DNA from: Halorubrum trapanicum
GTDB lineage: Archaea > Halobacteriota > Halobacteria > Halobacteriales > Haloferacaceae
Assembly (NCBI RefSeq): GCF_002355655.1
Contig: NZ_AP017569.1
Span: forward strand, 1,922,001-1,986,000
DNA: 64,000 nucleotides
Reading direction: 5' to 3'
Below, piece by piece: positions 4,683 to 64,000 of this stretch. The notes under the pieces are model-generated. The model ran no database searches, was not told the DNA's origin, and saw only the letters and a program-made list of their open reading frames with translations. A program made the position numbers and the translations under genes. Numbering within the stretch: the stretch's first letter is position 1; each line of letters begins with the position of its first letter.

Positions 4683-5140
4683 GTTTATAAACGGTCGCGA
4701 GCGGTGCCGGTGTCTCTTTATAAGTAGTGGAGCGCGGATCGTCGACTCACACCGCCGTATCCCCGGCCGCCTGCTTATAAATGGTCGACGACGGATCAGT
4801 GACGAACACCACCGAAGCCCCAGCCGCTCGGCTGTGCGATGGTGCGGTTTATAAACGACCGATCGACGCGAACACCGCCGAAGCCCCAGCCGGGCGGCGG
4901 CCTGACGCTCGCTGCGCTCCTCGTCACTCGCTTCGCTCGTTCCTGTGGTGCTTGCGTCGCCTCAGGCCGCCGCCCGGCTGCCCCTTCGAGTCCCGCCCTC
5001 GCACCGCACAGCACCTCACCCTCCCCAGCCTCGTCAGTCGCCTCCGCTTCGCTCCGGCGACTGACTCCCTCGCGCGGTGCTGCTCGGCCGCAAAGCGGCC
5101 TCGCAGGCACGCGCCACCGCACCGCCTCATTTATAAGCGA
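4683..5140 (-). repeat. Structured intergenic repeat, copy A
   Basis: This region between dodecin and alaX holds no credible gene. Read on the minus strand it has the same order as copies B and C. P1 is a GGCCGC/GCGGCC hairpin (5086-5100) inside an outer GCACGCGC arm (5107-5114 with 5072-5080). P2 is a 10-bp stem (5033-5042 with 5056-5065). The linker contains a GGGACTCGAAGGGG-type motif. P3 is a 19-bp perfect stem (4887-4905 with 4962-4980). Its tail has two clear units 66 bp apart (GAAGCCCCAGC at 4814 and 4880) plus a degenerate one. TTTATAA-like palindromes lie at 4684, 4718, 4775, 4848 and 5130. Confidence 0.85.
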
Positions 5141-20106: not shown

Positions 20107-21357
20107 ATGGCGATTAAGGCCACACGTACCTACGTTGGTTCCATCCAGAACCACCAACAGGTCTGTGATGGTCTTGATTCGCTCGGAGACTCCGCCTCGA
20201 AAATCTGGAACGTCGCACGATGGACAGCCGACCGTATCTGGGACGCAACCGGTGAGATCCCAAACGGTAGTGTGCTGAAATCGTACATGAAAAACCAGTC
20301 GTGCTGGAAAGATTTGAACGCACAATCCAGTCAGAAAGTCATCGAAGAACTTTCTGACGCTTTCCAGTCGTGGTTCGACCTGCGACAGAAAGATCAAAAG
20401 GTGAATCCGCCCGGCTACCGCAAACACGGCGACACCCGGCCACGTTCCACGGTGACGTTCAAAGAAGACGGGTTCAAACACGATCCTGACAACAATCGGG
20501 TCCGACTCTCAAAAGGCTCGAATCTGAAAGAACACTTCTCAGACTTCCTGCTTTGCGAGTACCAGACCCGGCCAGACGTTGACCTCTCGGAAGTCAACAG
20601 CGTACAGAATGTTCGTGCCGTCTGGAACGGTGACGAATGGGAACTTCATTTCGTGTGTAAGGTCGAACTCGAAACAGTGGATTCAGCTGGCGACGGCATC
20701 GCAGGGATCGACCTCGGCATCACAAACATCGCCACGGTCGCGTTCCCCGATGAATACGTGTTGTACCCCGGTAATTCGCTCAAAGAAGACAAACACTACT
20801 TCACCAGAGCCGAGTACGACACCGAGGGAGAGAGTGGCCCATCAGAGCAGTCGAGGTGGGCGCGTCGGAAACTCTCCGAACGTGAGACACACTACTACCA
20901 CACGCTGACGGACGCCATCATTACGGAGTGTGTCGAACGCGGTGTCGGTACGCTCGCGGTGAGTTGGCCTGAAGACGTGCGTGAGTCAGATTGGGGCAAG
21001 ACCGGTAACAAAAAGCTCCACTCGTGGCCGTTCGACCGCATCTACCAGTACCTCGAATACAAAGGCGAGATGCGCGGTGTGGAGGTGCTGAAAGAGAACG
21101 AGTGGAACACCTCGAAAACGTGTTCCCGCTGTGGAGACGACACGAAGTCGAACCGCGTCGAACGTGGACTGTACGTCTGCTCGTCGTGCGAGTTGGTAGC
21201 CAACGCGGATTGTAACGGGGCGGAGAATATGCGTCAGAAGATAACTCCGAGTCCTCACGGCGAGGATAGGAGTAACGGCTGTGTGGCACAGCCATCGACA
21301 CACTTGTTCGACCGCGAGAGCGGGACGTTTCACACGAGAGAACAGGTCGTGTCGTAG
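20107..21357 (+). CDS. tnpB: TnpB, RNA-guided nuclease family, non-canonical RuvC-II
   Basis: The 416-residue protein starts MAIKATRTYVGSIQNHQQV, typical of haloarchaeal IS1341-type TnpB. The RuvC-I Asp is Asp202 in GIDLGITN and the RuvC-III Asp is Asp368 in NADCNGAEN. A four-Cys zinc knuckle (CSRCG, CSSCE) lies between RuvC-II and III. Where RuvC-II normally reads ED preceded by hydrophobics, this protein has AVSWPEDVRE, with Ser286 at the usual Glu position and Glu289 or Glu293 as possible substitutes. Known TnpBs cut DNA guided by an RNA from the element's right end; activity of this variant is uncertain. Confidence 0.88.
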   Translation: MAIKATRTYVGSIQNHQQVCDGLDSLGDSASKIWNVARWTADRIWDATGEIPNGSVLKSYMKNQSCWKDLNAQSSQKVIEELSDAFQSWFDLRQKDQKVNPPGYRKHGDTRPRSTVTFKEDGFKHDPDNNRVRLSKGSNLKEHFSDFLLCEYQTRPDVDLSEVNSVQNVRAVWNGDEWELHFVCKVELETVDSAGDGIAGIDLGITNIATVAFPDEYVLYPGNSLKEDKHYFTRAEYDTEGESGPSEQSRWARRKLSERETHYYHTLTDAIITECVERGVGTLAVSWPEDVRESDWGKTGNKKLHSWPFDRIYQYLEYKGEMRGVEVLKENEWNTSKTCSRCGDDTKSNRVERGLYVCSSCELVANADCNGAENMRQKITPSPHGEDRSNGCVAQPSTHLFDRESGTFHTREQVVS

Positions 21358-21415
21358 ACCAGCAAATATCCCACCTGCGGGACGGGAAGCCTCGCCGTTT
21401 ACGGCGAGGAGGATG

Positions 21416-30276: not shown

Positions 30277-30626
30277 TTTATAAATGACAGGCGGTGGCGC
30301 GTGCCTGCGAGGCCGCTCCGCGGCCGAGCAGCACGCGCGAGGGAGTCGGTCGCCGAGCGAAGCGACGGCGACCGACGAGGCTGGGGAGGCGTGAGGTGCG
30401 GTTGCTGTGCGGGGCGGGACTCAAAGGGGCAGTCGCGAGGGCGAAGCACGGCGACGCAAGCACCGCAGGGAGCGAACGAAGTGAGCGACCGAGGAGCGCA
30501 GCGAGCCGCGCGAGCCCTCGCGGCTGGGGCTTTGGAGGGGTTCGCAGCCGATCTGCTGGCATCTATTTATAAGCAAAGTACCGGGATTTTGGCGGAGTGT
30601 TCCGTCGTCCCGTCGCCCGTTTATAA
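30277..30626 (+). repeat. Structured intergenic repeat, copy B
   Basis: Starting at TTTATAA (30277-30283), it has P1 (outer 30297-30304 with 30331-30338, inner GGCCGC 30311-30316 with 30320-30325). P2 is an 11-bp stem (30345-30355 with 30366-30376) around the loop AGCGAAGCGA. A linker holding GGGACTCAAAGGGG follows, then P3 (30430-30442 with 30514-30526, one G-U type pair), then a tail GGGGCTTTGGAGG ending in TTTATAA at 30566 and again at 30620. Open frames within it are not conserved between copies. It separates the aldo/keto reductase gene from tRNA-Gly. Confidence 0.87.
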
Positions 30627-30655
30627 ATGACTGATAGCGTTCAAATCTCGCGGAG

Positions 30656-30680
30656 ATTTCTCTCACTACGTTCGAGAAAT
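30656..30680 (-). terminator. Hairpin directly 3' of tRNA-Gly
   Basis: On the minus strand ATTTCTC pairs with GAGAAAT around the loop GAACGTAGTGA, starting at the tRNA 3' end. A second small hairpin, AAATCTC-gcg-GAGATTT (30643-30659), follows. It may act in 3' processing or termination. The loop resembles loops in the structured repeats. Confidence 0.4.
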
Positions 30681-32273: not shown

Positions 32274-33140
32274 ATGCGTACCGAAGACGGACTCACGATA
32301 TGTGTTCCGTCTTCGGTCGTCCGGGAGGCCGAGGACGACCGCGAGGCGACTCGCAAACTCGGCTACGTCGCCCGTGCGGCGGCGGTGTTCCGGGCGGATC
32401 GGCTCGTCGTCTTCCCCGACCGGGAAGGCGACGGCCGACGGGGCGGGGAGTACGTCCGCACCGTGCTGGGGTACGCCGCGACGCCGCCGGAGCTCCGGAA
32501 GGACCTCTGGGGGCAGCGCGACGAGCTCCGGTACGTCGGCGTGCTCCCCCCGCTCCGCGTGCCGTGGCGGACCGGCTCGACCCCTAGCGGGGGAGAGTCG
32601 AAAACACAGGGACTCGTGACCGAGGTCGGACCTGAAGGCCGCGTCCGGGTCAATTCCCCGCTGCGGGAACACCCGATCTCCCTGCTCGTCCCCTCCGGAA
32701 TGGAGGTCGAGCAGGGGGAGCGCGTCACCATCAGGGTCTCTTCGAGAGAACCGGTCCGCGCCCGCATCGCCGGGAAGCCCGAGGAGGGTTTCCAGGTCGT
32801 GGCCGCGGACCTGTCGGAAGCGCTCGCCGGCGACGGACTGGCCGTCGCGACGTCGCGACACGGAGAATCGCTCTCCGTCTCGCGGCTCGGCGACCTCGTC
32901 TCGGACGCCCGCGAGGCCGGCGGTTACACCGTCGCCTTCGGGGCGCCCGAGCGGGGGCTTCCGGAGATGCTCGGGCTTTCGCCCGACCGCATTCGGGCGG
33001 CCGTCGCCGACGGCCGCTCGGTCGAACCCGATCCGGGGTTCGACCTCTGGCTGAACACGATCCCGGCACAGGCGAGCGAGGTCGTCCGGACGGAGGAGGC
33101 TCTGTTCGCGACCCTCGGCTCGCTCACACTCACGGAGTAA
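32274..33140 (+). CDS. SPOUT-fold RNA methyltransferase (DUF171 family)
   Basis: The 288-residue protein matches archaeal SPOUT methyltransferases encoded just before uL3, thought to methylate uridine in rRNA. Visible features are an early strand-helix (LTICVPSSVVREA), an OB-like insert (residues about 115-170, QGLVTEVGPEGRVRVN) and the knotted C-terminal part with VAFGAPERGLPEM and LNTIPAQASEVVRTEEAL. ATG 32274 fits a CTTTTAC box about 40 bp upstream; GTG 32238 is an alternative. It ends 4 bp before rpl3 and probably heads the ribosomal operon. Confidence 0.85.
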   Translation: MRTEDGLTICVPSSVVREAEDDREATRKLGYVARAAAVFRADRLVVFPDREGDGRRGGEYVRTVLGYAATPPELRKDLWGQRDELRYVGVLPPLRVPWRTGSTPSGGESKTQGLVTEVGPEGRVRVNSPLREHPISLLVPSGMEVEQGERVTIRVSSREPVRARIAGKPEEGFQVVAADLSEALAGDGLAVATSRHGESLSVSRLGDLVSDAREAGGYTVAFGAPERGLPEMLGLSPDRIRAAVADGRSVEPDPGFDLWLNTIPAQASEVVRTEEALFATLGSLTLTE

Positions 33141-48177: not shown

Positions 48178-48237
48178 AATAGGCTATTTTAAAATAGGCT
48201 ATCTTGAAGTAGGCTATTTTGAAATAGGCTATTTGGG
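48178..48237. repeat. Four tandem 15-bp near-palindromes upstream of the ATPase promoter
   Basis: Four contiguous 15-bp units start at 48178, 48193, 48208 and 48223. The core AATAGGCTATT is an odd palindrome (AATAG-G-CTATT); single-base changes occur in units 2 (ATC for ATT) and 3 (AGT for AAT). The array is AT-rich in a GC-rich background and lies directly upstream of the TATA box, which suggests cooperative binding of a dimeric regulator. It could also be a target recognised by the ATPase itself. Confidence 0.8.
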
Positions 48238-48377: not shown

Positions 48378-48790
48378 TGGCGCGTGCCTGCGAGCGGCCG
48401 CCCTCGGCGGCCGCGAGACAGCACCGCGCGAGGGAGTCGGTGGTCCGGAGCGAAGCGGAGGACCACCGACGAGGCTGGGGAGGCGTGAGGCTGCGGTGCT
48501 GTGCGGTGCGGGGTGGGACTCAAAGGGGCAGTCGCGAGCGCGACGTAGGCGACGCAAGCACTGGAACGAGGGAGCGAACGCAGTGAGCGACCGAGTAAAG
48601 CGCGCAGCGAGCGTACGTCGCGCTCGCGACTGGGGCTTTGGAGGTTCACCGCCGATCTGTGGTCAACTATTCATAAGCGAGCGACTGGGGCTTTGGAGGT
48701 TCACCGCCGATCTGTGGTCAACTATTCATAAGCGAGCGACTGGGGCTTTGGAGGAGTTCACTGCGGCAACGCCGGTCACTTATAAAAGCG
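48378..48790 (+). repeat. Structured intergenic repeat, copy C
   Basis: P1 inner stem GCGGCCGCC (48394-48402) pairs with 48406-48414. P2 is an 11-bp stem (48436-48446 with 48460-48470) around GGAGCGAAGCGGA. The linker has GGGACTCAAAGGGG. P3 is an 18-bp perfect stem (48529-48546 with 48615-48632). The tail has three units of 55 bp, marked by TGGGGCTTTG at 48631, 48686 and 48741; the first two are identical and the third has changed. The last unit ends in TTATAAAA at 48780. No conserved frame is present. Confidence 0.87.
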
Positions 48791-63655: not shown

Positions 63656-63705
63656 CTCGGTTGGCGTGGATCGACGTGAGACGTCGCGGGGGTTCCGGCC
63701 GCTTA

Positions 63706-64000
63706 TTTATAAATATCTGACTGCGGGCTGGTAGTGACCGTTATCAAAGCCTCGGCCGCCCGTTTTTAAACCGTTGCTGGCGGATCGAGGGCGAACACCG
63801 CCAAAGCTTCGGCCGCTCACTTATAAATAGCTGACAGTAGATCGACGGCGAACACCGCCAAAGCCCCAGTCGCGAGGGCTCGGTGCGCTCGCTGCGGTCC
63901 TCGTCGCTCGCTCCGCTCGCTCCTGCGGTCCTTACGTCGCGCGCCTTCGCCCTCGCGACTGCCCCTTTGAGTCCCGCCCCGCCCCGCAACCGCGCCTCAC
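63706..64000 (-). repeat. Structured intergenic repeat, copy D (cut by window end)
   Basis: Read on the minus strand the visible part has P3 as a 13-bp perfect stem (63867-63879 with 63949-63961) and the conserved linker (TTTGAGTCCCGCCC at 63966, plus strand). Three tail units of 57 bp are marked by CAAAGC at 63745, 63802 and 63859. TTTATAA-like palindromes lie at 63706 and 63821, and a changed one near 63762. P2 and P1 would lie past the window end. No gene is present here. Confidence 0.85.

Follow-up and report, generated by a model that had tools for sequence, protein, structure and literature searches.

The window, by which we mean the whole stretch of 64,000 nucleotides analysed, belongs to the main chromosome (2.84 Mb) of Halorubrum trapanicum, whose genome also includes two smaller contigs that we read as plasmids. 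Four copies of an interspersed repeat, named A to D, lie in the window, and their parts are as follows.

48379..48490, plus strand: 5' module of copy C, with P1, P1b, P2 and the invariant GAGG.TGGGG.GG.G.GAGG (alignment A1, model R1)
48515..48641, plus strand: whole P3 module of copy C, with the frame GGGACTCAAAGGGGC, P3, the P4 rod, P3' and GGGGCTTTGG (alignment A2, model R2)
48529..48546, plus strand: 5' arm of P3 in copy C, the reported feature (18 bp)
48615..48632, plus strand: 3' arm of P3 in copy C (18 bp)
48642..48790, plus strand: tandem tail units of copy C, 55-57 bp, with a TTATAA-type box in each
30296..30396, plus strand: 5' module of copy B
30416..30535, plus strand: P3 module of copy B
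30430-30442 and 30515-30527, plus strand: P3 arms of copy B (13 bp, one T.G)
30536..30640, plus strand: tail units of copy B
5014..5115, minus strand: 5' module of copy A
4878..4994, minus strand: P3 module of copy A
4980-4962 and 4905-4887, minus strand: P3 arms of copy A (19 bp)
4690..4877, minus strand: tail units of copy A
63858..63975, minus strand: P3 module of copy D, whose 5' module extends beyond the window end
63961-63949 and 63879-63867, minus strand: P3 arms of copy D (13 bp)
63700..63857, minus strand: tail units of copy D

Anatomy of the element and its P3 stem

In Halorubrum, the element is made up, in this order, of an AT box, the 5' module, a G-rich linker that varies in length, the P3 module and the tail units. 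The AT box (TTATAA-type) is present 5' of 64 of 107 copies, only ~16-20 nt before the module. The 5' module runs through P1, GAGGGA, P2 and the invariant GAGG.TGGGG.GG.G.GAGG; the arms of P1 are GCGCGTGC and GCACGCGC, and an inner hairpin, P1b, sits above tandem G.A. The P3 module has the form GGGACT.AAAGGGGC-P3-GACG.AAGCAC-P4-GCGCAGCGAG-P3'-GGGGCTTTG, in which CAAAG and CTTTG pair below P3 across a GGG/GGG loop, and P4 forms a rod in which 2-bp steps, themselves covarying, alternate with tandem G.A. Each tail unit of 55-57 bp contains a TTATAA, the first box being located at +40 (61/107), with a period of 57 bp in 61 of 98 intervals.

Two further structures are associated with the element. 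An insert of ~50 nt with two hairpins (GCCGGCG..CGCCGGC-TGCCAGAGGGACC..GGTCCCTCGCTGG), which resembles a second small repeat family, is nested in element junctions and in neighbouring repeats, and was found at the copy B locus (L059, L073 and L077) and also at L030. Furthermore, a second type of inner domain, GGCCCCTATCC..GGATATGTC, occurs within the P3 frame at L182, L183, L185, L186, L188 and L197, and thus two or more loop types can occupy the frame.

The P3 arms had been described in the earlier note as 19 bp long in copy A, 13 bp in copies B and D and 18 bp in copy C, each being the exact reverse complement of its partner except for one G-U-type pair in copy B. Both the lengths and the complementarity were confirmed at the coordinates listed above, the exception in copy B being one T.G, and the gap between the arms, given as 56-71 nt, was measured as 56-72 nt. 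The P3 letters do differ between copies as claimed, but more than the first few bases are shared, about ten (CAGYCGNGAG) being common to the genus; class-wide conservation is limited to the closing C together with a preference for GCT. In copies A and C, the pairing of P3 resumes beyond a conserved G.G mismatch, and therefore the true helix is longer, comprising ~22 positions.

Covariation and exchange between copies

P3 pairs over at least 12 positions in 68 of 69 modules. In the alignment of 62 P3 modules (A2), pairing is seen in 97.0% of the pair cells, and 17 of 26 pairs are altered on both sides, giving a covariation score of 0.353 versus 0.103 when shuffled (0 of 500 shuffles) and at most 0.084 with slid partners, and in the alignment of 66 5' modules (A1), 90.2% are paired and the covariation is 0.271 versus 0.103 when shuffled. 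The compensatory change proposed for P3 is supported by these double changes, which exceed both the shuffled and the slid controls, as is expected of a structurally constrained single strand. Intermediate states were also looked for and are present, e.g. at P3 column 18-118, which contains 27 C-G and 26 T-A pairs together with 8 T-G as the intermediate. As the stem letters vary freely yet stay matched, it is the folded single strand on which selection acts, and the predicted fold energy is -138 kcal/mol for the plus strand and -115 kcal/mol for the minus strand.

Copying of one arm onto the other, or a cruciform formed by both strands, would produce G.T and A.C mismatches equally, whereas selection on the plus strand alone would produce an excess of G.T. 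Over P1, P1b, P2 and P3, the non-Watson-Crick cells amount to 67 G.T versus 18 A.C (P3 27:5, P2 19:4, P1 14:8 and P1b 7:1), counts that are not independent events because the copies are mutually related; the P2 arms were re-read from fixed anchors, since length variants make the P2 counts from the alignment imprecise. One column of A1 (7-49) opposes this trend, with 6 C.A versus 1 T.G. In addition, certain non-pairs are conserved among the 62 P3 modules, namely G.A in 62, A.G in 60 and G.G in 50 of them. Both the G.T excess and the kept mismatches argue against replication slippage, the alternative raised in the earlier note, as the sole cause of the matched arms.

Orthologous loci allow the changes to be followed individually. 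At the orthologous locus L205/L206, compared between two species whose flanking gene is 90.9% identical, the loop is the same at 60 of 62 positions, the two stem arms share 8 of 12 and 6 of 12 letters, and 4 of 12 pairs are altered on both arms. The orthologs L002 and L128 show two double changes in P3 and the same P4, and the differences between copy B and its orthologs are single G.T steps. At the copy B locus, moreover, the whole P3-to-tail block is replaced between H. distributum and Atlit-26R (L060/L061), and some P3 sequences are shared unchanged by different copies. En-bloc exchange between copies thus occurs as well, and the exchange of sequence that the earlier note had considered does explain part of the pattern, in the form of swapped stem-loop-tail blocks. 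If template switching and gene conversion were sufficient to keep the arms matched, no selection would need to be invoked, and the replaced block and the recurring P3 sequences are what such processes would leave. We nevertheless regard this as very improbable in view of the preponderance of G.T over A.C, the conserved G.G and G.A mismatches, the alteration of both arms around an unchanged loop at L205/L206, and the retention of the frame across a class. The alignments rather indicate that a folded single strand is genuinely under selection, that every copy preserves one fixed shape of its plus strand, in which the stem letters are free, and that these letters evolve by single G.T steps and by whole-block exchange between copies. 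The expression 'RNA or single-strand structure' used in the earlier note therefore had the right degree of caution.

As a candidate for alternative folding, a switch between the 3' arm of P1 and the G-rich linker was rejected, the signal being weak (-17.07 vs -16.70, sd 0.15), and the G-rich linker and the AAGCACCGCA segment gave no switch signal.

Genomic placement, distribution and inheritance

Covariance models built from the 5' module (R1) and from the P3 module (R2) each have at least 150 matches in the genome. They define at least 171 separate sites, all of them chromosomal, with R1 and R2 in the right order at no fewer than 126 places; among the R1 and R2 matches listed, there is no site on the smaller contigs. 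At ~300-350 bp per site, the element would account for roughly 2% of the Halorubrum chromosome. Among the R1 matches listed, the mean spacing is 18.4 kb, the strands are mixed, and large-scale strand polarity is absent (81 runs vs 75 expected). A role in replichore polarity or in distinguishing the leading and lagging strands was rejected, as orientation follows no pattern along the chromosome. All 77 copies examined are intergenic, the nearest starting 14 nt after a stop codon (codon-usage gene calls), and a cis-regulatory or terminator role was rejected because their orientation relative to the neighbouring genes is unfixed. A promoter of the element's own at the 5' end of the module was rejected as well, the box spacing being too short.

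When copies lie less than 3 kb apart, they tend to face each other: 9 of 12 such pairs among the matches listed are in inverted orientation, the 3' ends pointing towards each other. Facing pairs enclose 0.8-2.2 kb, e.g. chromosome 406434(+)/407670(-), and the segment between one inverted pair is flipped between species (L013, L115), which together suggest a possible role of the repeats in mediating inversions.

The frame GTGGGACTGAAAGGGGC-stem-GGGGCTTTC is found class-wide, and in Halorubrum the second folded module lies 5' of it. With at most one mismatch allowed, GTGGGACTGAAAGGGGC was detected in 97 of 145 genomes, which represent 39 of 58 genera; a single genome contains as many as 108 occurrences, and the reversed-pattern control gave one match overall. 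All 15 genomes of the same genus have many copies of the 5' module, which is scarce elsewhere (35 of the 145 genomes in the class sample). In other genera, the frame is either solitary or arranged in head-to-head pairs ~25-31 nt apart, and 31 of the 35 stems read there have at least 12 positions, their letters being mostly unrelated. Viral contigs contain no exact frame match, and none was found in phages.

On plasmids of many genera, there is usually one frame place per record. In 8 of 10 plasmid copies inspected, it is located ~540 nt from a divergent gene for an OB-fold protein of ~290 residues similar to replication factor A (RPA-like), and a conserved noncoding stretch of ~450 nt lies in between. 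The RPA-like protein is encoded once on each smaller contig of our genome (G000:C2:75009-75896 and G000:C3:66924-67814), and the one of these loci that was examined in its entirety has a degenerate module next to the gene. The conserved neighbour of the RPA-like gene is the ~450-nt stretch, the adjoining module often being degenerate. The same megaplasmid locus, with the RPA-like gene divergent from the ~450-nt stretch, was seen across haloarchaeal families (L211-L217, L219), including Haloferax mediterranei pHME132; it usually occurs once per plasmid, and the stretch holds a long perfect hairpin.

The element is present at the copy B locus in several Halorubrum species, is cut down to the 5' module in H. 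californiense, H. coriense and H. persicum, and is absent at this locus in H. lipolyticum, H. kocurii and H. saccharovorum. In a MAG (L067), the copy B locus has lost the folded core and kept the AT-box flank and the tail. When about 40 of our own sites were compared with the relative G008, 5 of 20 of its copies matched own copies at orthologous spacers, one match (L136/L126) being inverted in orientation. One clear empty site was found, between own L009 and G006 (34-nt spacer; a comparison between species with one genome per species), and target-site duplication was not significant (p 0.07-0.76). These comparisons indicate that most copies of the family have been inherited at fixed positions and that others were gained or lost. 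Its high copy number, intergenic location and modular build, the empty and the reversed orthologous spacers and the nested hairpin inserts would also suit a PATE- or REP-like element that is mobile but non-autonomous, with an HUH/Y1 transposase working on its single-stranded ends and hairpins that serve transposition only. We consider such an element improbable, because copies shared with G008 at orthologous spacers are old, the smaller contigs (among the matches listed), viral contigs and phages have none, target-site duplication is lacking, and diverged orthologous copies retain perfect stems, unlike dead insertions.

Working form of the element and its relation to known systems

Our best explanation, which we put at slightly under even, is that P3 forms the principal helix of a folded element, interspersed and strand-specific, whose working form is single-stranded DNA recognised as a hairpin. 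We infer its function to be that of a strand-specific hairpin recognition site. The plus strand would be exposed during replication, repair or DNA transfer and would snap into a very stable hairpin; a protein would then recognise this hairpin by its shape together with the conserved frame (GGGACTNAAAGGGGC / GGGGCTTT), and the recognised hairpin would serve as a loading, priming or processing site. Several observations count against this proposal: orientation follows no pattern along the chromosome, RNA can form GNA triloops too, column 7-49 of A1 has more C.A than T.G, and the RPA-like gene near the plasmid copies has the ~450-nt stretch as its conserved neighbour, with a module beside it that is often degenerate.

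The alternative that the copies are transcribed, from their own or a neighbour's promoter, into a structured noncoding RNA family whose fold is selected is a possibility that we take seriously but doubt. It is consistent with the covariation through G.U intermediates, the better fold of the plus strand, the unpaired G-rich linkers that are kept, the tandem G.A, the presence of several domains, and the TTATAA-type box ahead of 64 of 107 copies; the strand sense, however, is compatible with RNA and DNA alike. The number of sites in one genome and the want of a gene-orientation rule speak against it, as does the position of the box. The archaeal promoter box is usually located ~26 nt from the transcription start, and the AT box lies nearer than this to a start at the 5' end; likewise, the gap of ~25-31 nt in the head-to-head pairs, which are almost without spacer, leaves too little room for two archaeal promoters. 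Both arrangements favour DNA. GNA triloops form in RNA too, but the loops at the tip of P4 differ from the usual RNA tetraloops: 83 of 99 copies have a GNA triloop, with all four bases at N, and 4 of 99 have a tetraloop, each of them GNNA and none GNRA, so that GNA and GNNA together make up 87 of 99, the closing pair being C-G in 81 of 91. Extraordinarily stable DNA mini-hairpins have a GNA or GNNA loop, GCGAAGC reaching a Tm of 78 C (PMC4686876). The P4 loops satisfy this DNA rule (GNA/GNNA, G-C closing), which favours DNA again, and on the whole we lean towards single-stranded DNA over RNA. A wider reading, in which the frames, scattered over the chromosomes of some genera in tens to more than 150 copies, are class-wide archaeal single-stranded DNA hairpin loading sites (for priming, single-stranded DNA transcription or restart) with stems recognised by shape alone, is speculative and rather unlikely; we know of no family of such loading sites in Archaea.

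Searches for known relatives were negative within their scope. No Rfam 15 family matched the element at the curated score, and a lax cut-off applied to two copies also returned nothing, a further point against an RNA family. The sotRNA/omega-RNA model (Rfam RF02656) has no match at copies A-D, its match in the window being a separate one at 21239-21410. GGGACTGAAAGGGG was found in no paper of the literature searched, subscription papers lying outside the search, and the literature on PATEs, ncRNAs and repeats in haloarchaea does not describe the P3 frame.

Among bacterial interspersed repeats, BOX and REP/BIME share with the present element the genus-wide spread, intergenic location, modularity, strong hairpins, more than 100 copies and a variable tandem subunit, whereas the present element is archaeal and has a class-wide frame, freely changing stems and strand-specific covariation. 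The PATEs and small mobile repeats of Haloquadratum walsbyi (PMC3119063) are likewise short, intergenic, palindromic, high in copy number and devoid of target duplication; however, PATEs have only near-terminal palindromes related to IS605 ends, while the present element has a conserved multi-helix fold throughout, is mostly old and, among the matches listed, has no sites on its own smaller contigs. The DNA mini-hairpins d(GC-GNA-GC) (PMC4686876) have the GNA/GNNA tips, C-G closed in most P4 hairpins, in common with our copies, but they are synthetic oligonucleotides, whereas the present loops are embedded in long rods with tandem G.A. The Frpo single-stranded DNA promoters of plasmid F (PMC9849209), strand-specific hairpins near an SSB-type gene on plasmids, offer a possible working model and not a membership, as archaeal transcription differs. 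The sotRNA/omega-RNA of IS200/605 is also a haloarchaeal structured element, there as transcripts of mobile elements. Interspersed structured repeats are a known kind, and the present family and its class-wide conservation of shape alone appear new: an element recurring over a whole archaeal class appears undescribed in the literature searched. As it supplies dozens of natural variants with one shape and unrelated stem letters, shape recognition, the choice between RNA and single-stranded DNA, and the relative shares of compensatory mutation and gene conversion become directly testable.

Other features of the window include an accumulation, at 30640-30680 beside the tRNA-Gly gene, of repeated tRNA-Gly 3' fragments and CACCGGCCGAGA..GGCCGGTG hairpins, which is also seen at L059-L078 in many species. 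At 32632-32734, a match to the Rfam L4-Archaeoglobi leader lies inside a methyltransferase-like open frame upstream of the L3 gene, and is possibly due to chance. Finally, a 15-bp repeat, TAGGCTATTTTGAAA, occurs three times at 48180-48232, immediately upstream of an ATPase-like gene, of which it is possibly the operator.
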